This document shows positions 1,168 through 35,455 of a stretch of DNA of 37,697 nt, one piece after another. The DNA lies in IMG/VR virus record IMGVR_UViG_3300025380_000072, positions 1-37,697 of that record; one strand, 5' to 3'. The notes beneath the pieces are model-generated. The model was not told the DNA's origin, ran no database searches, and saw only the letters and a list, made by a program, of their open reading frames with translations. This DNA is from a virus. How positions within the stretch are numbered: the first letter of the stretch is position 1; the number at the start of each line of letters is the position of its first letter. A program made the translations under genes and the position numbers.

Positions 1168-1417
1168 AGTACAGTTTATAAAGAAGTACGGGTTGGAAAT
1201 ACCAACATTAAAGAATCGCCCAATGGGTGTTACTTTTCCATTATTAAATTACAGTACTATGGCGCCTCTCCCTGAGGAGGAGCAAGTCATGGAAGTTACT
1301 GATAAGGAAGCCCACGATTTAGTAGGGCAGGGCCATTTTAAGGTGGTAAAAGAAAAGAAAGCAGCAAAGAAAGTAGAAAAAAAGGAGGTAGATGACAATG
1401 GCGAAGATAGGGTATAA
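1160..1417 (+). CDS. Small hypothetical protein before tail tube
   Basis: An 85-residue protein starting inside the end of the MptE-like gene, with AAAGGAGG about 7 bases before the ATG. The first 60 residues look folded. The last 25 are a highly charged lysine and glutamate tail, rich in KKAAKKVEKKE, that is probably disordered. Its end overlaps the tail tube start by about 20 bases, so the two are probably translationally coupled. Small proteins at this place in siphoviruses are often tail completion or terminator accessories, but no motif shows that here. Confidence 0.7.
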   Translation: MVKVQFIKKYGLEIPTLKNRPMGVTFPLLNYSTMAPLPEEEQVMEVTDKEAHDLVGQGHFKVVKEKKAAKKVEKKEVDDNGEDRV

Positions 1418-2378
1418 GAGTCATATAGGTTATGCTGAGGAAACAACATTTGGAACAGCAGTTACACCTACAGGTTTTGTTGAGTATAATACAGAGGGTT
1501 TTAAAAAAGACATTACTGAGAAATTAGTTGATGCAATAAATGGGACGCAGCACTACAAAAAAAGAGTTACTCTTGACAGCAGCGCAGGAGGTTCATTAAC
1601 TTTTCCACTTGTTCCAGGAACAGTACTTCGTTTTTTGAAGAACGCAATAGGAGATTCGTATTCTATGACCACTTTGACAGCAGGAGTATATCAGTATAAG
1701 TTTATCGCAGGGATTAATAGCTTTACTTCTATGACATTCAGAGCGTGTAGAGATACAAGTGATACAAGTACATCATTCAACTATACTGGAAGCGCTTTTA
1801 ATTCAATTAAATTCAGCTGTGGTGTTAATGATATTCTTAAGTGTGATGTAGATATTCTTGCCAAAGATGAAGCAGCAGCGGCTACTATCGGAACAGCCAG
1901 CTACAGAACGTTGAATCCTTATACATTCGTCGGCGGCTCAGTCAAAATAGGAGATGCTAGCGCATCAGCAACAGCACCCGTAGTTGATTCTTGGTCATGT
2001 TCGCTTAGTAATAACTTTGTAGAATCAAGAGGAATTGGAAGTGCATCTTTACAGGGACTTACTCCCGGAATGCAAGATGTTACATACGATGTTAGTGCTC
2101 AGTTTGATGACACAACTCTATATAATAGATTCTTAAATGGAACAACAAGTTATGTATACGCCTTATTTGATAGTGGTGACACGATTGCAAGTACACACAC
2201 ACATTCAATTCAATTTGAATCGTTTAACTGTTATTTTAATGGAACTACCGCTAATGTTGGAGGGCCTTCAGAGTTAATCAAAGCATCCTACCCTATTAGA
2301 AGTATTTTTAGCGATGCCAGTACCACTACAATGTTGATTACAGTAGTTACCGACGCGAATACTATTGGTACTTATTAA
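1398..2378 (+). CDS. Major tail tube protein
   Basis: The beta-rich 326-residue protein looks like the phage tail tube family (Phage_tube_2-like): the N-terminal GYAEETTFGTAVTP and a later GSLTFPLVPGTVLRFL segment fit it, and the rest is serine and threonine rich as in tube and Ig-like tail proteins. It would polymerise into the tail tube. I chose the ATG at 1398 over the ATG at 1392 because AAAGGAGG at 1381-1388 lies about 9 bases from 1398 but only 3 from 1392. Position directly before the chaperone pair and tape measure supports the call. A GGxVKIGD-like stretch in the middle may mark a two-domain tube subunit. No signal or membrane segment. Confidence 0.82.
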   Translation: MAKIGYKSHIGYAEETTFGTAVTPTGFVEYNTEGFKKDITEKLVDAINGTQHYKKRVTLDSSAGGSLTFPLVPGTVLRFLKNAIGDSYSMTTLTAGVYQYKFIAGINSFTSMTFRACRDTSDTSTSFNYTGSAFNSIKFSCGVNDILKCDVDILAKDEAAAATIGTASYRTLNPYTFVGGSVKIGDASASATAPVVDSWSCSLSNNFVESRGIGSASLQGLTPGMQDVTYDVSAQFDDTTLYNRFLNGTTSYVYALFDSGDTIASTHTHSIQFESFNCYFNGTTANVGGPSELIKASYPIRSIFSDASTTTMLITVVTDANTIGTY

Positions 2379-10248: not shown

Positions 10249-10260
10249 GAGGAATGAATA

Positions 10261-10755: not shown

Positions 10756-10765
10756 AGGAGAAATA

Positions 10766-11149: not shown

Positions 11150-11162
11150 AAAGGAGGAAAAA

Positions 11163-11588
11163 ATGCAAAGAGTAATATTTGAAAATGATGAAGGTGGGGT
11201 AAGTGTATTAATACCATCACCTAACTGTAAGTTAAGTATAGAAGAAATAGCAAAGAAAGACGTTCCTTTAGGGAAAGCGTTTGAGATAGTTGATACATCA
11301 ATAATACCAAATGATAGAATCTTCAGAAACGCTTGGAAGAAAGACGGTAAAACGGTAGGAATTGATTTAGATAAAGCAAAGGAACATACTCATGTTTTAA
11401 GACGAGTTGCAAGAGCTAAGGAGTTTGAACCGTTAGATGAGCAAATAATGAAGAAACTACCAGGTACTGATGAAGTAGCTGTAGAAGCTGGAAGAGTTTT
11501 AGTAAGAGCTAAATACGATTTGTTTCAAACAGATATAGATGGTGCTGCGGATGTACATGAATTGAAAGCAATTATTGAGGAGATGTAA
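11163..11588 (+). CDS. Conserved fibre-cluster protein, possible fibre accessory
   Basis: 141 residues from the ATG at 11163, chosen because AAGGAGG lies 5 to 6 bases before it; the upstream TTG at 11139 lies within the previous gene and lacks a site. The N-terminal part reads FENDEGGVSVLIPSP, then EEIAKKDVPLGKAFEIVD, IIPNDRIFRNAW, a pattern I associate with small conserved proteins in fibre clusters. The C-terminal half is helical and charged. It may help fold or attach fibres, but that is inferred from position. Its stop shares bases with the next ATG (TAATG). Confidence 0.6.
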   Translation: MQRVIFENDEGGVSVLIPSPNCKLSIEEIAKKDVPLGKAFEIVDTSIIPNDRIFRNAWKKDGKTVGIDLDKAKEHTHVLRRVARAKEFEPLDEQIMKKLPGTDEVAVEAGRVLVRAKYDLFQTDIDGAADVHELKAIIEEM

Positions 11589-11980
11589 TGGGTGGAGTAA
11601 AAGCTGAAGCAATATCTAACGTAGCCGGAACAAAAACAATAGACACTGGTGATTTAGTTGATGGAGCTTGTAGAGCTTGGATTAATTTTAAAGCAACTGC
11701 CACAGCTGAAATAATTGATGATTTCAACTGTAGTTCACTTATTGACAATGCTACCGGGAGCTTTTCTTTTTCATTTGATACAGATATGACTGACGCTGAA
11801 TATCTAATTGCAGGTGGTGGAGTTTATGATTTAGCAACTGACGCGGCAAATAGTGATATTAATATAAATCCATATAGGAACGCGGCATATAAAACGACAT
11901 CTTCATTTAGAACATCGGTTACTAGTAATGGAGGAGCTTATGGCGCAGCAAGAGTATATATCTTGTTTTTTGGAAATTAA
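11588..11980 (+). CDS. CRAW-motif fibre protein, copy 2
   Basis: A 130-residue paralogue of the protein at 10766-11149, with CRAWINFKA near residue 33 and a shared 'D.F..SS' and 'DAEY' layout. The C-terminal halves diverge, as expected if receptor specificity differs. It is translationally coupled to the gene before it. It starts MGGVKAEAISN, different from copy 1, so docking may also differ. Confidence 0.65.
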   Translation: MGGVKAEAISNVAGTKTIDTGDLVDGACRAWINFKATATAEIIDDFNCSSLIDNATGSFSFSFDTDMTDAEYLIAGGGVYDLATDAANSDININPYRNAAYKTTSSFRTSVTSNGGAYGAARVYILFFGN

Positions 11981-12022
11981 GATGATATTGATAAAAAAAA
12001 ATAACCAAAGGGGGAAATAACA

Positions 12023-12508
12023 ATGGTACCATTGCCAACATTGCTACAAGTAGAAAGAGATAAACTTAAAGGAGCTGTCTTGAAATTTTTATCTGATAAG
12101 GTTCCTGAAAAGGAACTTAGATTAGAGATAGAAATATTTTTGGATGAGCTGATTGGGATTCAGCAGAGTATTGTAGACGGTATTTATTTCGACCTGAAAC
12201 AAATAAAAAAGAAATGTGATGCTTGTACGTATACACACGCACCTCCAAAAACAGGGACTTTTTTTGATAAATCAGACTTCTATTTAAAAGAGCGCTCTAA
12301 ATGGGCTAAAATAATGTGGGGGCTTGTTGGCACTTTATGCACCGTGATTCTTACAGGTTATTTGTTCTGGTTTATGCAGGTAGCTACAACAGTATTCGAG
12401 ATTAAAGATATCGTTATTAAAAATGAAGCGAAAATCGAGATGAATCAAGATGATATCGACGCGTTAGAGCGTGTAATGTTTCGCTCAGACTCAGGAATAA
12501 GGGAGTAA
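12023..12508 (+). CDS. Single-pass membrane protein, lysis candidate
   Basis: 161 residues with a helical N-terminal domain (1-65), two close cysteines (CDAC near 65-68), one clear membrane segment at about 96-118 (IMWGLVGTLCTVILTGYLFW) and a charged helical end. It lies just before the M15 peptidase, so a holin-like or anchoring role is plausible. The layout also resembles XhlA-like helper proteins, but the membrane segment is not at the very end. GGGGGAAA precedes the ATG. Confidence 0.55.
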   Translation: MVPLPTLLQVERDKLKGAVLKFLSDKVPEKELRLEIEIFLDELIGIQQSIVDGIYFDLKQIKKKCDACTYTHAPPKTGTFFDKSDFYLKERSKWAKIMWGLVGTLCTVILTGYLFWFMQVATTVFEIKDIVIKNEAKIEMNQDDIDALERVMFRSDSGIRE

Positions 12509-12512
12509 TTAG

Positions 12513-13049
12513 ATGTACGGAAAAAGATTTACGCCAGATGGGTTTGGGATAAAGGAATGGGTAGATAAAGAAACATATGATTTTCTAGGAGAGGAAGCGT
12601 GGAAGCTCTTCGATATTAGAATACTGCTTACTATGGATACCTTAAAGAAATTAACAGGTTGGACTATTATAGCTAACACGTGGGGTTTCAGAAGCGGTAA
12701 GTTTGGCAGATGGAGTCAAAGAGGATATAGACTATCTACCTCTACTACTGGTGCTAAGCAAGGGGCTCATTATAAAGGCATGGCTCTAGATTTCGATTGC
12801 TATAAGGATGGTAAAATGATTCCGGCGGCTGAGGTAAGGCAATTCATAATAGATAATATTAATAAGTTTGAACACATTAAATGTCTTGAGATAGATATCA
12901 ACTGGGTGCACCTGGACGTCATGGACGATATCGATAATCCAACCAAGAGAGGAGCAGTAACTTCAGGTAAGATATTACTATATAGCCCTAAAACGGGCGT
13001 GAAAGTAGTTGATATAAATGAGTTACAAGATAGTTATAACGAAAGATGA
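12513..13049 (+). CDS. M15-family peptidase, probable endolysin
   Basis: A 178-residue zinc peptidase of the VanY/M15 type. Seen: HYKGMALD at residues 86-93 gives the H-x3-G-x3-D zinc motif, and WVHLDV supplies H133 and D135, with E126 a possible catalytic acid. It would cut the peptide cross-links of the cell wall and free progeny. There is no separate wall-binding domain; the last 40 residues are short strands that could serve. No signal peptide, so it would need a holin. The ATG follows GGGAG. Confidence 0.85.
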   Translation: MYGKRFTPDGFGIKEWVDKETYDFLGEEAWKLFDIRILLTMDTLKKLTGWTIIANTWGFRSGKFGRWSQRGYRLSTSTTGAKQGAHYKGMALDFDCYKDGKMIPAAEVRQFIIDNINKFEHIKCLEIDINWVHLDVMDDIDNPTKRGAVTSGKILLYSPKTGVKVVDINELQDSYNER

Positions 13050-13062
13050 CCGAGAGTGGTTT

Positions 13063-13197
13063 ATGCGAGAAAACGGAAAAGATGTAGAGTACTGCGTGTG
13101 GAAAGAGGCGCAGCAGTTTCTAGGCTCTATGCAAGATTTGATGAGATATTATTTTGGTTTTGAGATGTATGTAAAGGAGATAAAAAATGACAGCTAA
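13063..13197 (+). CDS. Small hypothetical protein (44 aa)
   Basis: A 44-residue frame between the peptidase and the next small gene: helical, with one cysteine and a WKEAQQFLGSMQDLM core, no membrane segment. It overlaps the next gene, whose AAAGGAGA site lies within it. A start at 13046 is ruled out because that frame ends after 13 codons. Support is coding-like order and coupling only. Confidence 0.45.
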   Translation: MRENGKDVEYCVWKEAQQFLGSMQDLMRYYFGFEMYVKEIKNDS

Positions 13198-13285
13198 AAA
13201 AGGAAGTTGTGGTGGAACGCCACGAGTCGGAAAAAAAGGTGACTCTAAGCCTATACGGGGCGCTAGCCAAGGAAGAAGGAGGTAA
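13187..13285 (+). CDS. Tiny basic glycine-rich protein (32 aa)
   Basis: A 32-residue protein, rich in K, R and G, with a CGGTPR phrase. AAAGGAGA lies 6 bases before the ATG, a strong start. Short proteins with a GGTPR phrase occur near lysis genes in other phages, to my memory; their role is unknown. Its end holds the AAGGAGG site of the next gene. Confidence 0.6.
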   Translation: MTAKKGSCGGTPRVGKKGDSKPIRGASQGRRR

Positions 13286-13288
13286 AAA

Positions 13289-13585
13289 ATGGAAATTTTC
13301 ATGAATTTAATAGGTAACGAAATGGTAACTACTATAGGAGCAAGCATAATCGGTTTGTTTACAGGAGGTATATGGGTATGGCTATGGATTAAGTCTGGAA
13401 TAAGTAAAGCAATTCAAGAAGGTGGAGCACCAGTAGGTAACAAGCTAGGTTTATTCGTGTATTATAATATGTTAAAAAAAATTAAAGATATTAAGTTAAG
13501 GAATAAGATAGCAACAGATTTAAATGTTGCTGGGGATGATTTCGATAAGGGCTGGGATAAAGGGCTAAAAGGAATCAAACTTTAA
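13289..13585 (+). CDS. Small membrane protein, holin-like
   Basis: 98 residues with one hydrophobic segment at about 14-35 (IGASIIGLFTGGIWVWLWI), then a charged, helical cytoplasmic-like half. It is the last gene of the late arm, after the M15 peptidase. A single membrane segment and a charged tail fit a small holin or holin partner, though holin families are too varied to name it. The ATG follows GAAGGAGG. Confidence 0.55.
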   Translation: MEIFMNLIGNEMVTTIGASIIGLFTGGIWVWLWIKSGISKAIQEGGAPVGNKLGLFVYYNMLKKIKDIKLRNKIATDLNVAGDDFDKGWDKGLKGIKL

Positions 13586-13653: not shown

Positions 13654-14379
13654 CTAGTATTTAGCGTCTGAATCAATAGTAGCAGTTGCTTCAGGTATTG
13701 CCTTAGAGGCCTCTGAGCCTCCACCAAGTAATACGTTAAAATTGATAGCAGAAATTTCTTTATGATAACCTCTTAACTTAGTATACAGCTCAACATCAGT
13801 TACTTTTTCTACGAACTTAGCAGATGCAAAAGTAGACCATTTACCACTGGCGTTCTTTTCTTCCACAGTCCTAATTGAATAGATGCCTCCGAAAGTAGGG
13901 ATATTCTCAGTAGTCATCTTATCAGATAATAAGATTCTAAATTCCTGACCTTGTTTTACATTCGTACGTGTGAACGATAGTATCATAGGTATTGTCGGGT
14001 CAGCCGCATTTAGAACTACGAAGTTCAAACTTTCTTGAGCTGTTGGCGGAACTCTGTCGTGCCATGCTAATTCTTCGTCTGTAAAATCTGCCTTATTTAA
14101 TGACCTTTTAATAAGCGTAAATTTCTTTTTGTCCCATATACTGTAATCCTTGAAATAGTATAGTGGAATGAATTTAAACACATCTCCCTCTTCAGCTAAT
14201 GTCTGTTTTGTAGCTCCATTGATTAAGGAACCTACTCCTTTTCCTAAATCAAACTCCTTTGATAGTTTTTGAACTATCTTAATGAATCCGATTCTATTTT
14301 CTTCTGCTGGGTCGTATGCTTCAAGTCCCAGGCCTGCGTCTTCTTTCATGATATCTTCTAATGTTTTTTCTTTTGCCAT
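13654..14379 (-). CDS. SSB-like phage DNA-binding protein
   Basis: 241 residues. The N-terminal half has RIGFIKIVQKLSKEF, then EGDVFKFIPLYYFKDYSIW, the layout of a phage family often annotated as single-stranded DNA-binding protein ('P/FIKILQ.LS' then 'IP.YY...Y..W'). The C-terminus is glycine, serine and alanine rich and ends with acidic residues, as SSB tails do. It is the last gene before the shared terminator, with a strong AAGGAGG start. It likely coats replicating DNA; the family call is from pattern memory. Confidence 0.55.
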   Translation of the reverse strand: MAKEKTLEDIMKEDAGLGLEAYDPAEENRIGFIKIVQKLSKEFDLGKGVGSLINGATKQTLAEEGDVFKFIPLYYFKDYSIWDKKKFTLIKRSLNKADFTDEELAWHDRVPPTAQESLNFVVLNAADPTIPMILSFTRTNVKQGQEFRILLSDKMTTENIPTFGGIYSIRTVEEKNASGKWSTFASAKFVEKVTDVELYTKLRGYHKEISAINFNVLLGGGSEASKAIPEATATIDSDAKY

Positions 14380-14391
14380 TTTCTTTCCTCC

Positions 14392-14775
14392 TTATTTTCT
14401 GATTGATACTTGCATCTTACTATAAACACCTAAGCCTATTGCTGCAGCTACAGGTTTCTCTTCTTGGCCATTCCACCATCCTCTTAAAGTTTGAGAGTGG
14501 ACTGTCTCTTTGATAATATCGCCTTGCTTCGTATCCCTTAGATACTTATAGAAGACGCTCACATCCTCGATTGATGGATAGTCTGATTTTGATAGGAATA
14601 TAGTACCAACTCCTACTAAATTAAAACTCTGTAGATTGTTGTTAAGCATATCTTGAATCATGCGTTCTTGAGTTTCCTCTATCTGAGTATCTATCGCGTC
14701 TGCCGTAGCTTTAGCTTTTTCCTTACGCAAGCGTAGCTTAGCTAATTTTTCTGCGAGTCTTGTCATTTTCCTCAT
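14392..14775 (-). CDS. Hypothetical coiled-coil protein
   Basis: 127 residues. Residues 1-45 are a charged helix rich in K, R and E (LAEKLAKLRLRKEKAKATAD). A compact second half follows, with FNLVGVGTIFLSKSDYPSIE. Such helix-plus-small-domain proteins are common beside phage SSB genes, but I do not recognise this one. AGGAGGTGA before the ATG decides the start. A promoter lies just upstream, so this gene and the SSB-like gene may form a short separately driven operon. Confidence 0.6.
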   Translation of the reverse strand: MRKMTRLAEKLAKLRLRKEKAKATADAIDTQIEETQERMIQDMLNNNLQSFNLVGVGTIFLSKSDYPSIEDVSVFYKYLRDTKQGDIIKETVHSQTLRGWWNGQEEKPVAAAIGLGVYSKMQVSIRK

Positions 14776-16256: not shown

Positions 16257-17558
16257 TTACATTTTAGCCAATATAGTAGCAAGCAATTCAAAAGCACTTT
16301 GATTGTAAGGTTCCATTTTCCAGCATTCCCGTAGATACTCGATAGCTCCAATAAAATCTTTTTGATAATACTTTATTTGACCCAGGTGAATCAGGCACAT
16401 AGCATTTTTCCCCTTTAGCTCGGTAGCTTTTAAGAGTGATTCTTCCGCTTTATCAAAATTACCTTCTCTAAATAAGCTGAGCCCGAGAGCTGTGTGGAGC
16501 TCCCAGAAGTGAGGTTTGAATTTAATATACTCTTCAAGAATGTCTTGTTCATCGATAGCGTCATTTAAGCTGGAATACTTAATAATCAATTCTGGAAAGT
16601 TGTTGTAATTCTTCAATGCTTCGACTAAATTCTTTTTTGTACCTCCGACATCACCTGTAGCTGTACACTTATCTGCTCTATCTCTTAACGTATAACAGGC
16701 GTTTATGCGGTCAAGTAACTCAATATTTTCATCGTAGCAGGACATTTTAGGTGCTTTTGTTTTTGTTTTCTTAAATATAATAGCGGTGCCATATAAATAA
16801 TTATTTTCAAATACAGATTCAAAGCCATTTACTGCTAAAAAATATCGAAGGGTGTTGTCTGAAAACATGTTAATATGCTCATCTTTGAATAAATCATAGC
16901 GCGTAGTGTAATCTAGTCTATCTATAGTAGGCAATCCTATGTATAGAATCCCCGTATCCGACAGAATTCTGTTGAATTCCTTGAGAAGTAAATCTGGCTG
17001 TTGGATATGCTCAAGTACATGGTAACACACGATTAAATCGAAGCTACCGTCCTTATACACAGAGGTATCATCACTGGATGAGATATCTAAATCATAAATA
17101 TGCCTTGCCCAGTTGGCATGTCCCGGGTTAAGTTCTATTCCTTTTGCTGTTTTTATTAAATTTTCGTCACGTAGATACTTCAATAGATAACCATCACTGC
17201 ATCCGAAATCTAATGCGTTATTATAGGTATTGCCTTTATCTATATTATCAGCCATATAAGCACCTATCATTTTCTTATGCATCTCAAGTTTACTAAATTT
17301 AGTATTAAGAAAAGCCAGGTCTTGGGAGCGTACCTCTTTGTTATACCACTCTTGAATATCTTTCAGCTGTGGATTATAACTAATGAACCCGCAATTTCTG
17401 CAAATACATAGATGATTATCTACTATTGGTTTTCTGATATGGTCTAGGAACTCCCACTCCTCTTTGTGACATAAGGGACATTCTATTTCTACTCTGCTTT
17501 TATCGTACATCATAGTAACTTCTATCGTTTTATTAATTGGCTCTAATTTGTTTAACAT
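16257..17558 (-). CDS. SAM-dependent methyltransferase with Zn finger and TPR tail
   Basis: 433 residues in three parts. A zinc finger has C27, C30, C53 and C56 (C51 is close by). A class I methyltransferase core has LDFGCSDGYLLK near 117-128 and CYHVLEHIQQP further on. A C-terminal set of TPR helices (about 300-430) includes LGLSLFREGNFDKAEESLL. The finger-plus-core layout matches sugar C-methyltransferases and related surface-glycan enzymes. It is next to the DAHP-synthase-like gene, so an acidic sugar or glycan is the likely substrate, by inference. A protein or DNA substrate cannot be excluded. AAGGAG precedes the ATG. Confidence 0.75.
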   Translation of the reverse strand: MLNKLEPINKTIEVTMMYDKSRVEIECPLCHKEEWEFLDHIRKPIVDNHLCICRNCGFISYNPQLKDIQEWYNKEVRSQDLAFLNTKFSKLEMHKKMIGAYMADNIDKGNTYNNALDFGCSDGYLLKYLRDENLIKTAKGIELNPGHANWARHIYDLDISSSDDTSVYKDGSFDLIVCYHVLEHIQQPDLLLKEFNRILSDTGILYIGLPTIDRLDYTTRYDLFKDEHINMFSDNTLRYFLAVNGFESVFENNYLYGTAIIFKKTKTKAPKMSCYDENIELLDRINACYTLRDRADKCTATGDVGGTKKNLVEALKNYNNFPELIIKYSSLNDAIDEQDILEEYIKFKPHFWELHTALGLSLFREGNFDKAEESLLKATELKGKNAMCLIHLGQIKYYQKDFIGAIEYLRECWKMEPYNQSAFELLATILAKM

Positions 17559-17560
17559 AT

Positions 17561-18328
17561 TTACTCCTTCTTATTTGTTTCGAAAAGACCTTCGTTAACC
17601 CAAGACTCAAAGGTCGCGAAATTTATTTGTTGCTGAGCATCTGATAGCGCTTTCTTCGGACGATTGTGTACTTCAATCATTAGGTAATCAGGTTCATAAA
17701 CTTTAGCGCATTTGATTAAATTCTTAACGTATTTACTATCGCACGCAGAATGACTTACGTCGTAGCATATTTTATGTTTTAATTTAATATCTTTTACTTT
17801 TAAAACATCTACGCGCTTATTAAAAAGCCCTCTTTGGTGCATTAATTCTCTTAGTCTGGCGATGTCTGTAACGTCAGGCATAAAGCGCTGCTCTTGGGGC
17901 CATAACCCCATTATACCTCTGAGACACAATATTACTTCTGACTCATCTAAATAAGAAGCGTGGTCAAGAAAAGAACTTATACTAGATGCATAATGTCGTT
18001 TTAATAGTATCGGTTTATCAATTCCGTTTAATCCTTTTAAAAGATGAGTATTCATTTGATTTCTGCTACCTACCTGTATCATATCAACATCTTGTCTATA
18101 ATCGGATTCAGAATCATACATTTCATTAACAAATTCAAAGTAATATTCCTTTTTTAAATCTGCAATCCACCTATATACAGCTGGCGTACCTTGATAATCT
18201 TTCGGCATAGACCTGTACTTTAGAGCCCCTCCCCTTATGTATTTTATACCTAGTTCTGTTAAAAATTTTACTGTATCTTTTGTTTGTTTATACGATTCAA
18301 AACTACACGGACCTGCTATAATTTCCAT
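17561..18328 (-). CDS. DAHP synthase-like PEP-condensing aldolase
   Basis: A 255-residue TIM-barrel enzyme of the DAHP/KDO-8-P synthase superfamily, close to type I-beta DAHP synthases. Seen: GPCS (C8), RGGALKYR (32-39), GSRNQMN (87-93), PILLKRH (106-112), CLRGI (135-139), DVSH (H193), EVH (E219) and SDAQQQ (D230). C8, H193, E219 and D230 are the four expected metal ligands. The sugar-phosphate motif KPR reads KYR, and CERG reads CLRG, so the substrate may differ from erythrose 4-phosphate. It probably joins phosphoenolpyruvate to an aldose phosphate to make a ulosonic acid. It lacks the SAF domain of NeuB. Confidence 0.85.
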   Translation of the reverse strand: MEIIAGPCSFESYKQTKDTVKFLTELGIKYIRGGALKYRSMPKDYQGTPAVYRWIADLKKEYYFEFVNEMYDSESDYRQDVDMIQVGSRNQMNTHLLKGLNGIDKPILLKRHYASSISSFLDHASYLDESEVILCLRGIMGLWPQEQRFMPDVTDIARLRELMHQRGLFNKRVDVLKVKDIKLKHKICYDVSHSACDSKYVKNLIKCAKVYEPDYLMIEVHNRPKKALSDAQQQINFATFESWVNEGLFETNKKE

Positions 18329-18507
18329 TGATTACCCTCCACTTTCATAAATACTATATTGTCGTTTTCTTCTATTTCCTTCGTCATGTCTGAGTCATGT
18401 GAGCATCTCATTAACTCGCCGAGGGATACAAAAAAATTCTCAGTCAGCATTGCCGCGGTAAGTGTATTATTTTCCTCACCGCTTGATAATATTTTAAGCA
18501 ATGCCAT
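18316..18507 (-). CDS. Small hypothetical protein (63 aa)
   Basis: A short acidic protein with a hydrophobic centre (LTENFFVSLGELM), no known motif. Its end overlaps the aldolase start by 13 bases, and the aldolase ribosome binding site (GGAGGG) is inside it. AAGGAT precedes its ATG. It may be a partner of the aldolase, as small genes in such cassettes sometimes are, but nothing shows this. Confidence 0.55.
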   Translation of the reverse strand: MALLKILSSGEENNTLTAAMLTENFFVSLGELMRCSHDSDMTKEIEENDNIVFMKVEGNQWKL

Positions 18508-18508
18508 T

Positions 18509-18895
18509 TTATAGAAAATCCTTTGTCAGCATCGCATCTGGGATTTCACTTTTACGAAGCTGGGCCACTGCATAACTGTATAGCCTTAATAAAGTTCTGG
18601 TATAGTAGCTGTCTATTATAGTAGCGTCGTTTTTCATTAACTGTTGTATCATTTGTGCAAAGTCAACGATTTGACCCAGTGAGTCTTTGGATACTCTTCT
18701 CTTAAAATCGTCGATGAAACATTTACTGTACTGAAATATCTGAGTTTTATCAAATTGATTCGAGGGCACATAGTCATTTATAACTAGGAAGTCGTGTTTA
18801 AACAGCTCCAGCATCTCTACATTAGTCATGGCGCTTAGGCGCAATCCTGTTAAATCTAAATCCGCCATCAGTATATCTATTATTTTATTTGTCAT
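18509..18895 (-). CDS. Hypothetical helical protein (128 aa)
   Basis: Mostly helical 128-residue protein, no membrane segment, no motif I recognise. It starts 10 bases inside the end of the cytidylyltransferase gene without a clear ribosome binding site, which points to coupled translation. Function unknown. Confidence 0.6.
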   Translation of the reverse strand: MTNKIIDILMADLDLTGLRLSAMTNVEMLELFKHDFLVINDYVPSNQFDKTQIFQYSKCFIDDFKRRVSKDSLGQIVDFAQMIQQLMKNDATIIDSYYTRTLLRLYSYAVAQLRKSEIPDAMLTKDFL

Positions 18896-20231
18896 TTATT
18901 GCGGCATCCGTTTCTTTTATTAGCCCGCGGCGACTGGGGTCGTGCGTTAAACTTCTGTCGTGTACTCTGTAAATAAACAAAGGCTCCGCTAGATATCCTG
19001 TTTTAAATCCGTATTCTTTGAAACTTTTAAGTAAAGTAGTCCCATCTCTGAAAGACTGTGTTTCTTTAAATTTAACGAAACTGTACTTTTTTTTCTCGAT
19101 AAGAGCACAAGACATAATGTTGTCTTTATCACCAGGTACATTGTGTATGAGCAGTTTATCTGTTAAAGCGTCGAAATTCGGGATAACAGCGCTGTAGAAA
19201 TTGTGCTCCGTCAGGTAGTTAACCATCTTCTCTAAAGCATCCGGCATTAACATATCGTCGGCATCCAACCTAAGAATATACTTACCTCTCGCTTTCTTTA
19301 TAGCTAGGTTGATGCTGTCTATGAAGTTCAGCTCATCGGTAAAAAAGGTTCTTACTTTTTCTTCGTTATTTACTTCTTTTAAATACTGGTGTATCTGCTT
19401 GCTACCATAATCGATTAGTATAAATTCGTAATCAGTAAATGTTTGTTCTTGCAAACTCGCAATAGCATTTTGAAGCCACTTAATAGGGTAATCCTTAAAA
19501 ACAGTATACACAGTCACCAAGGGCACTTTATTCATATCTGTTATAAATGAGTTGCGTGTAATAAATTCTACTATATCCCATGTATTGAAGCAATAGTTAA
19601 TGACAGATAGTTTTTTCCAGACCAACTGTACTACTTTCCAATCGTCCTCCGTATCCAGTGTTAAATTGATACTTGGATTTTTGTATGAGCCTGGAACCTT
19701 GAATACTTTTGAGGTATCGGTATTTTTAAATAGAAATTCTATGCTCTCGACATCAGCCATGTCGTATTCCCCTAAGGCTTTTACAAGAGAATCTCTTTTA
19801 AATACATCACTGTCGCAACCTCTTATGAGATTTTCAGGATAAGTATAAGACGCATCTGCCAACACCGCCTCTACCGCCATTGAATCTAGAATAGCTGTAT
19901 CAACGAAAAAATCATCACCTGTAACTCTTATAATGTAATCGTACCCTTTAGAAGCATCGTACAACCTCCTAGCTATATTCTTTTCATCACCACGAAAGCA
20001 TCCGAGTAAGTACTTATATTTACCTTTTAGACGTAAGTACGCGTCGAAAATAGGCGAATCTGCATCTCTATCCGTAGTAGCTATTATACAATTATAGGAT
20101 GTTTTCCCAAGTCTTTGAATTAAATACTCCAAGCATGAAAGACCCGGTTTTAATTCTCTCAGTATTTTACCAGGTGCTCTTTTGCTGTCGTATCTGCATT
20201 GAATTAATATAATTGCTTTAGGGTGTATCAT
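18885..20231 (-). CDS. SpsF-like cytidylyltransferase fused to GT2 glycosyltransferase
   Basis: 448 residues, two domains. Residues 1 to about 230 resemble the SpsF/CMP-sugar transferase family: IILIQCRYDSKRAPGKILREL matches 'I.QAR..S.RLPGKVL..L' (the first ~25 residues), followed by LGCFRGDEKNIARRLYDA and RVTGDDFFVD. Residues about 235-445 form a GT2 fold: VPLVTVYTVFKDYPIKWL, SLQEQTFTDYEFILIDYGS and the metal motif LDADDM. It would activate a sugar as its CMP form and transfer it or another sugar. The R of QAR is kept as R13, while T in STR reads K. It overlaps the radical SAM gene in ATGA. A fusion of activation and transfer in one chain is unusual. Confidence 0.85.
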   Translation of the reverse strand: MIHPKAIILIQCRYDSKRAPGKILRELKPGLSCLEYLIQRLGKTSYNCIIATTDRDADSPIFDAYLRLKGKYKYLLGCFRGDEKNIARRLYDASKGYDYIIRVTGDDFFVDTAILDSMAVEAVLADASYTYPENLIRGCDSDVFKRDSLVKALGEYDMADVESIEFLFKNTDTSKVFKVPGSYKNPSINLTLDTEDDWKVVQLVWKKLSVINYCFNTWDIVEFITRNSFITDMNKVPLVTVYTVFKDYPIKWLQNAIASLQEQTFTDYEFILIDYGSKQIHQYLKEVNNEEKVRTFFTDELNFIDSINLAIKKARGKYILRLDADDMLMPDALEKMVNYLTEHNFYSAVIPNFDALTDKLLIHNVPGDKDNIMSCALIEKKKYSFVKFKETQSFRDGTTLLKSFKEYGFKTGYLAEPLFIYRVHDRSLTHDPSRRGLIKETDAAINDK

Positions 20232-21172
20232 AAGTTACTCCACTTGTAAGATTCTGAACTATCGCAATTTTTACACATTTTAGGCAATACATCGAATCTA
20301 AGAAATTTGAGATTATCTCGTATACACAATAAGCTCGGATGATTCCAATAATCTAATAGCTTTACTTCTTTACTATCAATACTGAACGGTAGATAGCTTG
20401 GTTTATGCCAAAGTAAGCAGCAATATCCTACTTTAAAATCATGAGTAACAACAAGCCTTCTCCTCGGCATTAAACAATCTTTTCTCCCTACAGCAACCTT
20501 ATCTCCTAATTTTTTTATTTTACCTTTTTTAGTAATTTGCTCCTTTAGGGTTACTCTATCCATTGCTGCTCTTATATTAAATTTTACTTTATGATATCGA
20601 GCGGCCCAAAGCATACGAAACTTTGCGATTTCTACATACTCATGACTGGATGTATATACATATGATAAGGTCAGCTTAGCCCTGTGTTGGTAGCCACCTA
20701 CCATTCTTATAGTATCTAGTATATTATTCTCGAGCAGTTGAAAATCACCACCACGTTTTTCTTTATACGTATCTTTATAAAAAGCATCTACACTAAAGCT
20801 TATGTCAGTACAATACTGAGCCATCCACAACGACACAGCCTTATTTCTATACTGTCCATTAGTATTAATTCTTATATCTATAAATTTCTTATGTGCATAT
20901 TTAAGGAATAAATCGAAATCGGGATGTAATGTTGATTCTCCTCTTAGATTGAATTTAATACTGGGTACTTTACCTGCTATCTCATCTATTATTTGTTTGT
21001 ATCTATCAAAATCCATGAAGCCTTTTTTAAAGTCCTGTATATGTTCGCTGTGTGGGCAAAAGCTACAGGATAAATTACAATGCGTACTTAATTCAAAATC
21101 AACATGCAATGGATACTCCCAAGTTATGTACTTTGCTAAATGCCATTTTAATCTATACAACCAATATTTCAT
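20228..21172 (-). CDS. Radical SAM enzyme with SPASM/Twitch-like C-terminus
   Basis: 314 residues from the ATG at 21172 (AGGAGA six bases before). THCNLSCSFCPHS carries the CxxxCxxC cluster motif at about residues 31-38. Downstream, FNLRGESTLHPDF is the 'GGEP'-like element with RGES in place of GGEP. C-terminal cysteines (KDCLMP, GYCCLL, KMCKNC) suit an auxiliary Fe-S cluster domain. Such enzymes modify peptides or sugars. Context is a glycan cassette, so a sugar or anchor peptide substrate is inferred. An upstream in-frame start at 21232 would read over the small gene at 21169-21318 and is less likely. Confidence 0.82.
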   Translation of the reverse strand: MKYWLYRLKWHLAKYITWEYPLHVDFELSTHCNLSCSFCPHSEHIQDFKKGFMDFDRYKQIIDEIAGKVPSIKFNLRGESTLHPDFDLFLKYAHKKFIDIRINTNGQYRNKAVSLWMAQYCTDISFSVDAFYKDTYKEKRGGDFQLLENNILDTIRMVGGYQHRAKLTLSYVYTSSHEYVEIAKFRMLWAARYHKVKFNIRAAMDRVTLKEQITKKGKIKKLGDKVAVGRKDCLMPRRRLVVTHDFKVGYCCLLWHKPSYLPFSIDSKEVKLLDYWNHPSLLCIRDNLKFLRFDVLPKMCKNCDSSESYKWSNL

Positions 21173-21318
21173 TTTATTTCTCCTAACAATTTTAATCTCC
21201 CATAAACAGATATCTTCATATCCTTTGGACACTCTGCTTCTACCTTATCATACTGCTCTGTTGTTAAAGCAATCGAAAGAATCTTAGCTTTAGGACTTAA
21301 CATTTTTTTTCTACCCAT
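21169..21318 (-). CDS. Small ribbon-helix-helix-like protein (49 aa)
   Basis: A 49-residue frame ending in the ATGA overlap with the radical SAM start. The sequence AKILSIALTTEQYDKVEAEC resembles the strand and first helix of a ribbon-helix-helix DNA-binding protein, but it is shorter than most. The ATG lies only 6 bases after the -10 box of the promoter at 21325-21353, so the message may be leaderless, or translation may begin at the second ATG at 21303. It could regulate the cassette it heads. Confidence 0.5.
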   Translation of the reverse strand: MGRKKMLSPKAKILSIALTTEQYDKVEAECPKDMKISVYGRLKLLGEIK

Positions 21319-21324
21319 AATATA

Positions 21325-21353
21325 ATTATATATGATTACTCGTCATAAGGCAA
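21325..21353 (-). promoter_or_regulatory. Promoter for the radical SAM / sugar cassette
   Basis: Minus-strand TTGCCT (21353-21348), 17 bases, TATAAT (21330-21325). The -10 box is perfect, and the -35 hexamer equals that at 32213-32208. It overlaps the end of the gene at 21336-21623. Predicted start of transcription is about 21318, at the ATG. Confidence 0.65.
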
Positions 21354-21623
21354 GTTTTCACTTATATTTATTATTTCTCTAAAAACTCTGTCGATAGCGG
21401 TTCTATGAACAGCACGTAGCTCAACATTTTTTCTAGACATTTTCTCAGTATGATAAAGATAAGCTTTTTCTTGGTCTGTGAACTCTTCAAATGCTTTCTT
21501 ACAAAGTGAATTTCTTCTATTATCCCAAACCCCTGTGAGGTAATTAGCCTCAGATAGCCGTATTATTGCATTAAAAAATACCAGAGCGTGGCCTTTGGCT
21601 TGAGCTTTCTTCATAAACCTCAT
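21336..21623 (-). CDS. Hypothetical basic helical protein (95 aa)
   Basis: 95 residues, basic, helical, with two cysteine-free halves apart from one C near 41. No family recognised. It overlaps the next gene upstream by 4 bases and follows GAGGA. Its end contains the -35 and spacer of the downstream promoter. Function unknown. Confidence 0.6.
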   Translation of the reverse strand: MRFMKKAQAKGHALVFFNAIIRLSEANYLTGVWDNRRNSLCKKAFEEFTDQEKAYLYHTEKMSRKNVELRAVHRTAIDRVFREIINISENLPYDE

Positions 21624-21880
21624 TTAAACGTCCTCGTTTCTTCTATGTATTCGTACTCACCTAGATACCATGCCTTTATACAAAAGTCGATAAAAGCTCT
21701 TTGCAAGCTCTTTAAAGCTTTCTTCTGCATATGTATCTTATCCTTATAATTCACTTTTTCTTCCTCTTGCTTCAGTTCAAAAATAGTCTTCTTCACTTGT
21801 TCAATAACCATTCTGTCTATGAGACATGACAACGTATTGAAATTAGGAATCTTTTCTCTCTCTAGTGGACGTCTAACCAT
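21620..21880 (-). CDS. Hypothetical helical protein (86 aa)
   Basis: 86 residues, mostly charged helix, ending with a tryptophan and tyrosine-rich segment (CIKAWYLGEYEYIEETR). Starts 8 bases inside the GT9-like gene with AAAGGGGT before its ATG. No motif known. Coupling suggests it belongs to the same operon as the transferase. Confidence 0.6.
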   Translation of the reverse strand: MVRRPLEREKIPNFNTLSCLIDRMVIEQVKKTIFELKQEEEKVNYKDKIHMQKKALKSLQRAFIDFCIKAWYLGEYEYIEETRTFK

Positions 21881-23207
21881 GATTCAATACCCCTTTTACT
21901 TCTTTCATTATGTTCTCAATCGGTTCATATTCTACTCTTACGCGCTGTGGGTTATTCTGAGTTGGGATTAATTCAACACCGTCTTTGCCCAGCATTTTCA
22001 CATAGAATATCTTCTTAACCTGCTTACTTATAGGCTCGTAACTAAGTTTAGCAATGTTTTCGGTTTCCATATCTGTAGTAGTCTCCTGTGCCGTATAATT
22101 TATACAGATTATAGGTGTGTCTGAACAAGCTACCGCAAGCATCTGTGGTGCTGAATGACAGCCGATAAATAATTCGGACTGCTGTATCTGTTCCATCTGA
22201 GCTCTCACCGATAAATCAGCGTGGCTAGCATTGTAACAATTGTTTAGAAAAGTCATTGAAGAATCTCCAAGCCTAACTATTTCATAATCAGGATACTCTT
22301 TTGCCAAAGCATCTATTAAATCTTGGCTGTAGTTAGGATTAATGTCTCTACCCTCAGAGTCCCCATATTTACCTTCTCTGAAGTGAACGGTTATTTTCTT
22401 AAGAGGCTCAGCTGCAGGAGTAGGTACTATCTTAGGGAGCGTTATACCTAGTGAGTACAGTCTGGCTCTTTCTTCCCATATTCGAAGGCCTGTCTGTATT
22501 TTAGGATTGTTTTCCATTCCAAATAGATAAGGCAGATATCTATATTTAAAAATAGCAGCCTTCGGAAGAGCTCTTAACATCCTAGTGATAATGTATTCTT
22601 GTATAGCTACGTTTAGGAATCCTGTTGGGTGTTTTAATGTGAGGGAGATTTGCCTGTTCTTTTCTTCTTCCATAAGAGTAATATCAATTACCCCATCTAA
22701 CCAAGTACACGTCTCGAAAAGTTCTCTTAAATCGTCCCTATTAGTAGGACATATTGCCAGAACCGTACAGCCTTTAAGTTTCTCAAGCATCATATATTGA
22801 AGCATTACTATCGAATCACCGAAAGCTACTGGCCAGATGTAAGGAAATATAACCAGTTTCTTGGTAGCTTGGAATTCCTTGGCTTTCTTTACAAAAGTAT
22901 CTGCTAATTTTTTTAAATCCTTATTTCGAGGAATCATAGGAGTACTGGCCAGTGTACTTATTCCTACCTGTGCTACATTGTCTTGGACGGCGGCTGCGTG
23001 GAAGGCCTTTTGAACCTCTTCGTCTTTCGTAAAAAACACAGCCTGCATCATGCTTAAAGTAGTGTGTACAGCTTCTGCCGTGCGGTTACCTCTCACTTGG
23101 CATCGTTTTATCCACTGCATGCCCTCAACCATATCTATTTCTTTTTCATTTATTAATTCCGTTATCTGAGCATCATATTCTCCATTTACATATTTATCTA
23201 GATTCAT
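21873..23207 (-). CDS. GT9 (heptosyltransferase)-like glycosyltransferase
   Basis: 444 residues from ATG 23207, chosen because the upstream 28 codons would lie within the nuclease gene and AAGGGGT sits before this ATG. Residues 1-115 are a helical leader of unknown role. Then VIFPYIWPVAFGDSIVMLQY matches the 'R...GDVL...P' start of GT9 N-domains, and the second half has the ADP-sugar-binding type fold: ITVHFREGKYG, YPDYEIVRLGDSS and FIGCHSAPQMLAVACSDTPI (the 'G.DSG..H.A' region, here GCHSAPQMLA). It would transfer a sugar from a nucleotide donor. Donor and acceptor are unknown. Confidence 0.7.
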   Translation of the reverse strand: MNLDKYVNGEYDAQITELINEKEIDMVEGMQWIKRCQVRGNRTAEAVHTTLSMMQAVFFTKDEEVQKAFHAAAVQDNVAQVGISTLASTPMIPRNKDLKKLADTFVKKAKEFQATKKLVIFPYIWPVAFGDSIVMLQYMMLEKLKGCTVLAICPTNRDDLRELFETCTWLDGVIDITLMEEEKNRQISLTLKHPTGFLNVAIQEYIITRMLRALPKAAIFKYRYLPYLFGMENNPKIQTGLRIWEERARLYSLGITLPKIVPTPAAEPLKKITVHFREGKYGDSEGRDINPNYSQDLIDALAKEYPDYEIVRLGDSSMTFLNNCYNASHADLSVRAQMEQIQQSELFIGCHSAPQMLAVACSDTPIICINYTAQETTTDMETENIAKLSYEPISKQVKKIFYVKMLGKDGVELIPTQNNPQRVRVEYEPIENIMKEVKGVLNHG

Positions 23208-26208: not shown

Positions 26209-26590
26209 TTTCCCCTCTCTCGTGCACTATTTGAGGCGCTACCCCGTCGTCGTATACTTTATGAAGTATAAGCTGGCAGACTTTATCTCCTTTGACAACA
26301 GCAAATCTTTTGTCACCGTGATTGAACGTAAATAGGGATAATTCGCCTTTAAAACCAGAATCAACAACACCTCCGTGCATCTGAACGCCGCGCCTCGCTA
26401 TTGAAGACCTTGTCTGGATATGAACCCAATACCCCTCAGGGATATCCAGCGAGATACCTAGTTTAATTTCAGCGCGCCCGCCTGGTGCTATCGCAATCTC
26501 CTCAGATGCATAGCAGTCAAGTCCTACGTCTCCTTTATAAGCTCTTGTTGGTTTCTTTGCGTCTTTATTAGTTAAATTTATTTTTAGCAT
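26180..26590 (-). CDS. dut: dUTP diphosphatase
   Basis: 136 residues, complete trimeric dUTPase. All five motifs are present: GDVGLDCYA (I), TRSSIARRG (II), GGVVDSGFKGEL (III), GDKVCQLIL (IV) and RGENGYGSS (V). It removes dUTP and supplies dUMP for dTMP synthesis, keeping uracil out of the new DNA. It overlaps the DpdA-like gene by 23 bases and the polymerase by 29 bases, so the three are one translational unit. AAGGGAG lies before the start. Confidence 0.96.
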   Translation of the reverse strand: MLKINLTNKDAKKPTRAYKGDVGLDCYASEEIAIAPGGRAEIKLGISLDIPEGYWVHIQTRSSIARRGVQMHGGVVDSGFKGELSLFTFNHGDKRFAVVKGDKVCQLILHKVYDDGVAPQIVHERGENGYGSSNHV

Positions 26591-27350
26591 GATTTTGTAA
26601 CTCCCTTATATTATGGGCTGCCAGAGATTGTACGTTGTCTAGAGAAGAAGTAAAATATTCATCTCCGAAATCAGGCTTTTCACCAATACCTGACCCCAGT
26701 ATTAAATCGTGTACCAGCGTCATTTTAAAAGGTAGGCTAGTATCACAGCTCCGGATAGTATCGTTGTGGTATGACAATTCTAAAGGTTGATATAATCCCA
26801 GCAAGTGCACCGGCTTAGTAATATAAACTGTCTTCGTAAACCAGAGGCGACTTAAAGCGTTACGCTGTGTTTTGTTTATTGCTTCAGGAACATTAAAATC
26901 ACTGAAGAAGTCTAATCCTGCAAACGGTAAGCTTATTACCTCAATGCGTCCATCTGCCTCAAAAGTATCTAATGTACATAGGGCGTCTTCTAGTGTAGCT
27001 CCTTGAACTACTGCGTTAACTGCTATGTTATGCTCTGCTAGTTCGTCGTAGTGTTCGTCTAAAAATTGTTCAGTAGCGCCTCTCGTTTTTTGACCATCGT
27101 GCAGATAATCTGGAGCTATAACCTCATGTGGCTTTAGAGCTAGTGCCCATTGCATTTGCTCTTTTCCGGTGAGCAACTTTCCTTCAGCTGCGCCATTATC
27201 CATCATAACATACTTACCTTCTCTTGCTTTTTGAACAAAGAACTCAAAATAAGCTGGGTCCTCGAGAAAAGGAGCCAGGCACATGAATAAATCACTTTCG
27301 TCTTGATACGTTTTTAAATACTTATGTGGCGGTATTAGTGCTAATTGCAT
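26568..27350 (-). CDS. dpdA: DpdA-like DNA transglycosylase (7-deazaguanine insertion)
   Basis: 260 residues with a tRNA-guanine transglycosylase-like barrel. Seen: MMDNGAAE (D51), EVIAPDYLHDG (D81), AVVQGATLED (VVQG as in TGT 'QG'), ISLPFAGLD, HLLGL (as the TGT 'MGVG') and SCDTSLPF (D203, at the nucleophile position). This is the pattern of phage DpdA proteins, which swap guanine in DNA for preQ0 or a relative. The enzyme is shorter than bacterial TGT and lacks the zinc site. FolE, QueD, QueE and QueC next door supply its base. A tRNA substrate cannot be excluded by eye. Confidence 0.82.
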   Translation of the reverse strand: MQLALIPPHKYLKTYQDESDLFMCLAPFLEDPAYFEFFVQKAREGKYVMMDNGAAEGKLLTGKEQMQWALALKPHEVIAPDYLHDGQKTRGATEQFLDEHYDELAEHNIAVNAVVQGATLEDALCTLDTFEADGRIEVISLPFAGLDFFSDFNVPEAINKTQRNALSRLWFTKTVYITKPVHLLGLYQPLELSYHNDTIRSCDTSLPFKMTLVHDLILGSGIGEKPDFGDEYFTSSLDNVQSLAAHNIRELQNHAKNKFN

Positions 27351-27642
27351 TTCTTATCCTCGCTTTCTCTCTTTGAATATACCATTCTGCTTTGTCTAAG
27401 TCTTCTAACTCATCGTACTTAGAGCCTGCTCTCGTTGTATATTTAACTACGTTACCTCTGTTGAAATTTAACTTTTTTGCTTCGATAAAATCAATCGTTT
27501 CTACGCCTCCTTTACGATAGTGCGATGGATTTATTGCTTCTTTGAAACCGTCATCCACTTTCGTATGGTCATTTGGCCAACGGCTTGTTCTGTACGGCGG
27601 TATTACTGATTTAGGCTTCTCATGGTCACCTAACCAACTCAT
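27322..27642 (-). CDS. DUF3310 protein
   Basis: 106 residues. The DUF3310 core is clear: NPSHYRKGGVETIDFIEA, then FNRGNVVKYTTRAG and EDLDKAEWYIQREK. This domain is widespread in phages next to nucleotide metabolism genes; its function is not established. Overlaps both neighbours (ATGA with the gene before, 29 bases with the DpdA-like gene). Confidence 0.9.
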   Translation of the reverse strand: MSWLGDHEKPKSVIPPYRTSRWPNDHTKVDDGFKEAINPSHYRKGGVETIDFIEAKKLNFNRGNVVKYTTRAGSKYDELEDLDKAEWYIQREKARIRNAISTNTAT

Positions 27643-28568: not shown

Positions 28569-28648
28569 TTTATTAATCCTCCTCGTTTTAATGCGTATAC
28601 ATAATTAGTCACTTGTATCTTTGACCTTTCACTGTTATCACTGTCAAC

Positions 28649-34448: not shown

Positions 34449-34682
34449 TTACTCCTCTTTCCGTAAGTTCGAGGGATATGGCCTTCTATGAAGTTTCGAA
34501 TCCGGATTAAATCTTAAGATAACACCTTTGTCTTGTTTATGTCTGGGAAATATTTTTATACTATTTTCATAAAATATTATATTCTCAATTGAGAATACGT
34601 CCCCAATTGTAATTAGTGCTTGGAGCACTTCTTCTCTGGAATGTGGTTTTTTCATGTCTGAAGTCAGGTAATACTGCCTCAT
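34449..34682 (-). CDS. Hypothetical protein (77 aa)
   Basis: 77 residues, mixed helix and strand, with a FSIENIIFYENSIKIFPR core. It overlaps the dehydrogenase gene at its start (ATGA-like overlap of 4 bases) and ends just before the primase-helicase. No motif recognised; it may be a primase partner. Confidence 0.6.
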   Translation of the reverse strand: MRQYYLTSDMKKPHSREEVLQALITIGDVFSIENIIFYENSIKIFPRHKQDKGVILRFNPDSKLHRRPYPSNLRKEE

Positions 34683-35455
34683 GTTTTGTGTCTCTTATTA
34701 TTGAAAACGAGGTCCGCTAGAAACAGGGGATTATATCCTTCGCTCATGCTCTCCTCTATTATGGCTCTAACATCTTTAGGCAAACAATGGCCTCCCCAGC
34801 CTCGGTTATCTTTATAAATGTTTGTCCACCAAGTATTCATTCTAGGGTCTAAATCAAATACCCCTTCTTTCACTACATCGTAATCTACTCCCGTCGCCTC
34901 ACAAATATTGTAAAGCTCATTGCAGAATGTTACCTTAGTAGCTATGAAACAATTCTCTGCATATTTGATAACACTGGCAGTCTGCATATCCGTTTCCAGT
35001 ATCCGAGTGGTTGGAGGATACACAGTTTCGTATAATCTTCTTACTTTCTTAACACTTACTTTATCACCACCCAGTACTATAAATGGATGTTTCTTGATAT
35101 CGTCCATAGGCGCAGGATAAGGACTGGAGCTGGCAACGTATTCAGGCTGGAAGACAACATGAGCACCATACTCCATTCTAAGCTTATCAAGCGCAGACGG
35201 GGGCATTGTAGACCTAATAATAAAGACTTCTGCTGATACCTTAGATACAATATCTTCTATTGCGCTAAAGTTACAGGAGCCATCTTCGTTCATTGGTGTA
35301 GATGCACAAACCATACAATATTCATAATCGAACATTTCAATATTTATATCTAGTCCTGTGATATAAGGGTCGTACACATCAACGTTCTTAAATAGCTTAT
35401 GTACTGCTTTCCCAACGTAACCGTAGCCTGCTATTAGTATCTGTTTATCTCTCAT
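34679..35455 (-). CDS. UDP-glucose/GDP-mannose dehydrogenase family protein, short form
   Basis: 258 residues. NAD motif GYGYVG (10-15), STMPP (82-86), KYAENCFIATKVTFCNE (164-180) and GWGGHCLPKD with C224 and K227 as catalytic residues. Typical family members have about 400 residues and a third, sugar-binding domain; this protein stops after the central domain. It could still oxidise a nucleotide sugar, perhaps as part of a larger complex, or have lost activity. The sugar cassette lies elsewhere in the leftward arm. AAGGGG precedes the ATG. Confidence 0.82.
   Translation of the reverse strand: MRDKQILIAGYGYVGKAVHKLFKNVDVYDPYITGLDINIEMFDYEYCMVCASTPMNEDGSCNFSAIEDIVSKVSAEVFIIRSTMPPSALDKLRMEYGAHVVFQPEYVASSSPYPAPMDDIKKHPFIVLGGDKVSVKKVRRLYETVYPPTTRILETDMQTASVIKYAENCFIATKVTFCNELYNICEATGVDYDVVKEGVFDLDPRMNTWWTNIYKDNRGWGGHCLPKDVRAIIEESMSEGYNPLFLADLVFNNKRHKT

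Follow-up and report, generated by a model that had tools for sequence, protein, structure and literature searches.

Why would a tailed phage carry a compact set of genes apparently suited to making, activating and transferring an acidic sugar, and what would receive that sugar? The question is raised by a 37,697-base virus record of IMG/VR (IMGVR_UViG_3300025380_000072), analysed over its whole length and hereafter called the window. Its cassette lies uninterrupted on the minus strand and encodes a methyltransferase with tetratricopeptide repeats (TPRs), an aldolase resembling 3-deoxy-D-arabino-heptulosonate 7-phosphate synthase (DAHPS), an SpsF-type cytidylyltransferase fused to a family 2 glycosyltransferase (GT2), and a radical S-adenosylmethionine (SAM) enzyme with a SPASM/Twitch domain. 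All four had been named in an initial annotation, and Pfam searches confirmed them at the same coordinates (Table 1). The spacing between neighbouring genes ranges from -13 to +2 nucleotides, with the exception of 103 nucleotides before the radical SAM gene. The analyses below suggest that the cassette is probably, though far from certainly, part of a phage-encoded virion glycosylation system using an ulosonic acid activated with cytidine monophosphate (CMP).

Scans with single sequences returned only the same virus from other assemblies, and it was profile scans that opened the family. Scanning IMG/VR with a radical SAM profile gave 42 loci, and with a DAHPS profile 43 further contigs, in about half of which radical SAM, SpsF, GT2 and methyltransferase genes adjoin an aldolase of 23-30% identity. 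Both scans pooled yielded 52 radical SAM loci forming 31 clusters at 90% identity; these are not phylogenetically independent counts, and all relatives are IMG/VR contigs. SpsF and GT2 domains occur in 30 of the 31 clusters (the exception is at a contig end), the methyltransferase family in 27 of the 28 that could be evaluated, and a phosphoenolpyruvate (PEP)-dependent sugar-acid synthase, either the aldolase or the sialic-acid-synthase family protein NeuB, stands beside the CTP-transferase in 29, both exceptions lying at contig edges. The initial annotation had proposed co-occurrence in related genomes as a check, and the gene set was indeed recovered in 31 lineages. It is a conserved phage module, with its order kept and a co-occurrence beyond chance.

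Most relatives carry the cassette within tail or virion operons. The siphovirus-like group B has the order tail tube, tape measure, two tail genes, F7 (Gly_rich_2), radical SAM and SpsF-GT2, followed by a 120-aa helical protein, the aldolase or NeuB, and then the methyltransferase. The group A set is located between portal/head genes and an internal-virion or amidase-like gene, and at locus L139 a gene read from its sequence as endolysin-like is found within the set.

The best evidence on the chemistry comes from the synthase slot, which across the 31 clusters holds a DAHPS-like aldolase in 21, NeuB in six and both in two. At L162, L175, L183, L184, L188 and L192, a NeuB-family protein of 222-240 aa is encoded between the small protein and the methyltransferase, replacing the aldolase, and NeuB exceeds the Pfam cut-off in eight loci. 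No aldolase was detected anywhere in seven whole NeuB contigs (those of the six loci just named and the L252 contig), and a search of 19 records with an aldolase recovered no NeuB. At L168, which has both synthases, NeuB is devoid of both metal-binding histidines (GYKDKT, EKNIT). Enzymes of the NeuB type form sialic-acid-type sugars by condensation of PEP and a hexose (PMC7591256). Because NeuB replaces the aldolase beside a CMP-sugar synthetase, the aldolase would also make an ulosonic acid, and the swapping of two unrelated PEP-condensing enzymes in one slot provides strong evidence, at the level of gene content, for a CMP-ulosonic-acid pathway. The route put forward in the initial annotation, in which PEP condensation and CMP activation precede the transfer of an acidic sugar, appears well supported by the co-occurrence and by this exchange, and formation of a CMP-ulosonic acid is regarded as likely. 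The exchange is also a natural experiment on the aldose used by the pathway.

The nearest characterised relatives of the window aldolase are type I-beta DAHP synthases (33-37% identity). It satisfies the DAHP_synth_1 Pfam profile (97.8 bits for a cut-off of 25.5), fails the curated DAHP synthase equivalog TIGR01361 by about 100 bits (162 vs 267.75), and fails the equivalog of 3-deoxy-D-manno-octulosonate (KDO) 8-phosphate synthase, TIGR01362 (32 bits for a cut-off of 314). An AlphaFold2 model (pLDDT 82) has DAHPS (Foldseek, 1zco, E 1e-20) and then KDO 8-phosphate synthase as best PDB folds. The metal ligands C8, H193, E219 and D230 and the PEP residues R32, R89, K110 and R137 are kept in the window and invariant in the aldolases examined from cassette groups A-C, which cluster together in a quick tree (SH-aLRT 90). 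The KPRT motif of DAHPS binds erythrose 4-phosphate. This motif reads KPRT or KPRS in 16 of 16 bacterial DAHPS and [RSVI][AY]GT in groups A-C; at this place the window has KYRS and L156 has KPRS. Since the phosphate-binding Arg is lost in groups A-C, the sequences suggest a non-phosphorylated aldose for these groups, as for NeuB, which would explain why no phosphatase gene is present. An alternative view is that the aldolase is a metabolic DAHP synthase, encoded by an auxiliary gene that enhances the shikimate pathway and lies beside sugar genes by coincidence. The identity of its closest characterised relatives is in line with this, as is the Arg of KPRT kept in the window and L156, but NeuB fills the same slot in other lineages, KPRT is lost in groups A-C, no shikimate genes are found nearby, and an SpsF gene accompanies DAHPS at none of the 80 best bacterial loci, so that such a role is very improbable.

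What, then, would receive the sugar? A gene missed in the initial annotation belongs to the system and points to the tail. It encodes a DUF115/MptE-like protein, and the family profile has its best PDB match (E 7e-7) in 5mu5, which we take to be a structure of Maf (motility associated factor), archaeal MptE (8sd5) being matched with an E of 0.003. Of 14 further cassette contigs, 13 contain DUF115, at times well away from the cassette; all three aldolase contigs without a cassette lack it. A single 85-aa open reading frame (ORF) separates it from the tail-tube gene in the window. Directly downstream of DUF115 is a tail-tube gene in all 12 of the cassette contigs compared, and in 70 of 72 loci from an independent DUF115 scan, these loci having been chosen by conserved motifs. 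Conversely, six new DUF115 contigs of at least 30 kb contained an SpsF-type domain in five cases, fused to GT2 in four, and a radical SAM gene in only three, the radical SAM enzyme being therefore a more dispensable part. One DUF115 match, L213 (the contig of L194), contains an in-frame TAG.

Two precedents bear on this association. Maf1 is needed to place pseudaminic acid from its CMP-activated form onto flagellin, in the cytoplasm (PMC4065374), and mycobacteriophage capsids and tail tubes are reported to be glycosylated (Freeman et al. 2023, as cited in PMC12619734). Because DUF115 co-occurs with the cassette and adjoins the tube gene, and in view of these precedents, the tail, most likely its tube, is the favoured acceptor, which we consider slightly more likely than not. 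Tail fibre or appendage proteins (F7, Gly_rich_2) or another structural protein might be glycosylated instead, through GT2 and TPR-guided recognition. In nearly every group B cassette an F7 gene immediately precedes that of the radical SAM enzyme, and F7 proteins have a Gly_rich_2 domain and the highest mean Ser+Thr content (23%) among the families compared. However, F7 was not found adjoining the cassette in the window or in group A, and DUF115 stays beside the tube gene even when the cassette is elsewhere in the contig; acceptors of this kind are considered rather unlikely.

The same CMP-ulosonic-acid pathway could also serve to decorate the host surface (lipopolysaccharide, capsule or teichoic acid) via GT2, and so block superinfection late in infection or change the receptor, with DUF115 being incidental or involved in building a precursor. 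The occurrence of GT2 and the CTP-transferase in one fused protein would fit, and so would the UGD, epimerase and GLF genes near some cassettes, which are reminiscent of polysaccharide loci; phage-encoded modifiers of host-capsule pseudaminic acid do exist (PMC12053666). The host surface is a possible target, yet an unlikely one, as the set is located in virion or lysis operons and probably expressed late, DUF115 is tied to the tail-tube gene, the annotated genes include no lipid-carrier transferase, flippase or O-antigen ligase, and known cases of surface conversion come from prophages.

Together with the virion and the host surface, the initial annotation had listed a modified DNA base as a target. 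The virion is favoured by the DUF115 gene beside the tube gene and by the tail and virion operons, and it is the DNA base that lost ground. Cassette sugar might be used for DNA hypermodification together with the preQ0/7-deazaguanine genes of the window, where FolE, QueC, QueD, QueE, a DpdA-like gene and a partial DpdC match are present, but FolE, QueC, QueD, QueE and DpdA are absent from seven near-complete cassette phages (tblastn, E<1e-4). The two modules are therefore independent and a DNA base is an unlikely acceptor, making this use of the sugar extremely improbable.

Several observations weigh against a Maf-like glycosylation of the tail by this pathway. The DUF115 protein is much shorter than Maf, and the 5mu5 match spans only about 54 residues. 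One cassette contig, L178, is devoid of DUF115, and L296 (33.7 kb, incomplete) has DUF115 without an SpsF domain. A high Ser+Thr content is common to several tail proteins. The window cassette is on the strand opposite the tail genes and adjoins replication genes. Regarding the synthase, the aldolase of the L226 contig has an Asp where the metal-binding Glu is expected, and seems to lack that Glu. No sugar phosphatase is encoded, which would be needed for a phosphorylated aldose, and enzymes for the aldose precursor were not identified. Window and L156 aldolases are on separate long branches among DAHPS, apart from other cassette aldolases and with unsure placement, and the window enzyme may therefore represent an independent recruitment.

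KdsB is among the solved relatives of the CTP-transferase domain. Among solved structures, BtrN comes nearest to the radical SAM family (E 5e-19) and has the same domain order, and the cassette enzyme has the cysteines of a BtrN-type protein, namely the radical SAM motif CNLSCSFC (CxxxCxxC) and the conserved Twitch-type auxiliary cysteines C230, C248, C297 and C300 (A3 numbering). BtrN is an alcohol-oxidising radical SAM/Twitch dehydrogenase whose substrate is an aminocyclitol antibiotic intermediate. A viperin (pVip) identity of the radical SAM protein was rejected, the match being at superfamily level only. The methyltransferase probably modifies either the sugar or the protein that carries it. 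By analogy with Caulobacter FlmG, whose TPR domain recognises flagellin (PMC7591256), a protein-guided role for its TPRs is plausible.

Taken in order, the DAHPS-like aldolase, or NeuB in other lineages, would condense PEP with an aldose into a 3-deoxy-2-ulosonic acid, which the SpsF-type domain would activate with CTP. The BtrN-like enzyme might oxidise a sugar hydroxyl and the methyltransferase might methylate the sugar or the product, in either order. From the CMP-sugar, the DUF115/Maf-like protein would transfer the sugar to Ser/Thr residues of a tail protein, for which the tube encoded by the neighbouring gene is the likeliest candidate, while the GT2 domain could add or supply a further sugar. 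Benefits to the phage might include stability, shielding or adsorption. More tentatively, and with a probability somewhat short of even, this may be a widespread system in which phages synthesise CMP-ulosonic acid themselves, many lineages relying on a repurposed DAHP synthase that has lost the use of erythrose 4-phosphate, and in which the tail tube is glycosylated by a minimal Maf-like transferase. As part of the same tentative proposal, the system could parallel flagellin sialylation on the viral side and might involve a new sugar oxidised by the radical SAM enzyme.

If this is correct, tailed phages of many lineages make nonulosonic-type sugars and put them on their virions, and the reason why phages glycosylate their tails becomes directly testable. 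It would also account for genes that tend to be listed as stray auxiliary metabolic genes and provide new CMP-sugar enzymes, among them a natural series of DAHPS-like synthases whose acceptor motifs are altered, a sugar oxidase resembling BtrN and a Maf of reduced length.

The closest known system is bacterial flagellin O-glycosylation by Maf, as with Aeromonas caviae Maf1 and CMP-pseudaminic acid (PMC4065374). It has in common with the phage genes CMP activation, a protein of the DUF115/Maf type and a PEP-dependent acid-sugar synthase, which in some cassettes is NeuB; in phages the DUF115 gene adjoins that of a polymerising tubular protein. In contrast, the phages have a tail tube in place of flagellin, their synthase is usually a DAHPS-like aldolase, and their DUF115 protein, whose activity is predicted from its family, is shorter; they also add the radical SAM enzyme, the methyltransferase and GT2. 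Mycobacteriophage virion glycosylation likewise involves the tail tube; as far as it is described in PMC12619734 (citing Freeman et al. 2023), glycans of capsid and tail tube are attached at C-termini by phage-encoded transferases, with gene sets differing from the cassette. Caulobacter FlmG/NeuB (PMC7591256) also combines a NeuB-made acid sugar with a TPR domain recognising a filament protein, but there the TPR is fused to the transferase, whereas in the phage cassette it is fused to the methyltransferase. Acinetobacter prophage epaA/epaB (PMC12053666) are likewise phage genes acting on nonulosonic acids; they modify host-made pseudaminic acid on the host capsule, with neither synthesis nor a virion target. 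Thus, known principles, flagellin-type sugar transfer and virion glycosylation, occur here in a new combination. To our knowledge, no phage-encoded pathway for CMP-ulosonic-acid synthesis has been described for mycobacteriophage virion glycosylation.

The statement in the initial annotation that no phage system with this gene set had been described holds within the papers and phage records searched. The set is undescribed in the papers found, most subscription papers being outside the search, and it was not found in phage isolates by megablast of the region or by tblastn of the aldolase, SpsF-GT2, DUF115 and the protein encoded at the far end of the cassette (last cassette row of Table 1). Aldolase matches in phage isolates (at most 33% identity, unannotated, with names suggesting Listeria, Staphylococcus and Enterococcus) were read as host-type DAHPS and set aside. 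A bacterial origin of the cassette was also rejected, since 687 bacterial genomes from two phyla, with the best few candidates per genome scored, gave single-domain matches only, of at most 125 bits vs 310-698 bits for the phage proteins.

Table 1. Cassette genes and associated features of the window
Feature	Position	Strand	Remarks
DUF115/MptE-like, Maf-type candidate protein glycosyltransferase, 294 aa	283..1167	+	PF01973, 65 bits (cut-off 34.6); late operon
Tail tube (Phage_tube_2), candidate acceptor	1392..2378	+	24% Ser+Thr
Methyltransf_23 with C-terminal TPRs and two N-terminal CxxC pairs	16257..17558	-	Pfam E 3e-19 and 2e-8
DAHPS-superfamily (type I-beta-like) PEP-dependent aldolase, DAHP_synth_1	17561..18328	-	Pfam E 7e-28
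63-aa ORF, no family	18316..18507	-	Not found again in relatives
128-aa protein U128	18509..18895	-	Same slot in L156 and L226 contig
SpsF/KdsB-type cytidylyltransferase (N-terminal, CTP_transf_3) fused to GT2 (C-terminal)	18885..20231	-	Pfam E 6e-10, 6e-19
Radical SAM with auxiliary SPASM/Twitch domain	20228..21232	-	Pfam E 4e-11; likely start ATG 21172
95-aa protein	21336..21623	-	Conserved in L226 contig
86-aa protein	21620..21880	-	Conserved in L226 contig
Unknown-family protein (initially GT9-like)	21873..23207	-	41-42% in L156 and L226 contig; ORF opens 23291
UDP-glucose/GDP-mannose dehydrogenase-like	34679..35455	-	Possible accessory; homologues in or near some cassettes (L156, L175, L188)

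Other parts of the initial annotation fared less well. The GT9-like (heptosyltransferase) identity of the 21873-23207 product was dropped as unproven for want of profile support: it has no Pfam match, its one NCBIfam match is to RfaQ over 31 residues (E 0.02), and a three-sequence profile matches nothing in PDB. Pfam revealed no ribbon-helix-helix protein in the cassette stretch, and in place of the good promoter that had been proposed, promoter-like sites were at chance level (45, with 43.3 +/- 6.4 expected). Four small genes without known function had also been listed, and none of them has a Pfam or PHROG family. Those of 128, 95 and 86 aa recur at matching places in relatives and are therefore real genes; the 63-aa ORF is a doubtful member of the module. 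The nearest relatives of the window are L156 and the L226 contig, both sharing the 21873-23207 and 128-aa proteins with it, the 95- and 86-aa proteins being common to the window and the L226 contig.

U128 occupies the position that the helical F6 protein has in other cassettes, with no detectable homology between the two. Family A6 (e.g., L141:9538-9894) is a helical bundle of about 120 aa between SpsF-GT2 and the aldolase or NeuB, and its C-terminus is always Tyr or Phe. The F6 model is a confident helical bundle (pLDDT 91) matching one viral model only and no solved structure. In other cassette groups this place is taken by a small protein that looks unrelated, usually with an aromatic C-terminus too.

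Four further IMG/VR records represent the same virus (99.8-100% identity), one of which lengthens the left end by about 7 kb and adds a candidate major capsid protein and head-tail genes. The plus-strand block of the window (283-13,585) includes the tail genes, with the tape measure at 3616-5988 downstream of the tube gene. The minus-strand block comprises Pam3-like genes, a helicase, the cassette, a nuclease, PolA and the preQ0 module. Proteins resembling gp34 and gp33 of Pam3, a cyanophage, are encoded at 13654-14775 (minus strand) and give the sole, weak hint on relatives or host. The preQ0/7-deazaguanine module (26568-31935, minus strand) consists of a DpdA-like gene, DUF6884 with a weak partial DpdC match, FolE, QueC, QueE and QueD; the DpdA-like call was read from sequence and has no Pfam match.

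Genes beside or inside some cassettes hint at variable accessory sugars, including a UDP-galactopyranose mutase (L156:8697-9983) and a UDP-sugar dehydrogenase with an epimerase-like gene (L175:11013-12715). Finally, a different sugar cassette was observed in other marine-looking large phages, L117 (9340-16607), L128 (5594-11346), L123 and L124, in which a DAHPS-like aldolase with the motif KPCT adjoins a CTP-transferase-like gene. L117 and L128 have a second DAHP_synth_1 gene and no DUF115, and L117 also carries a radical SAM-like gene.

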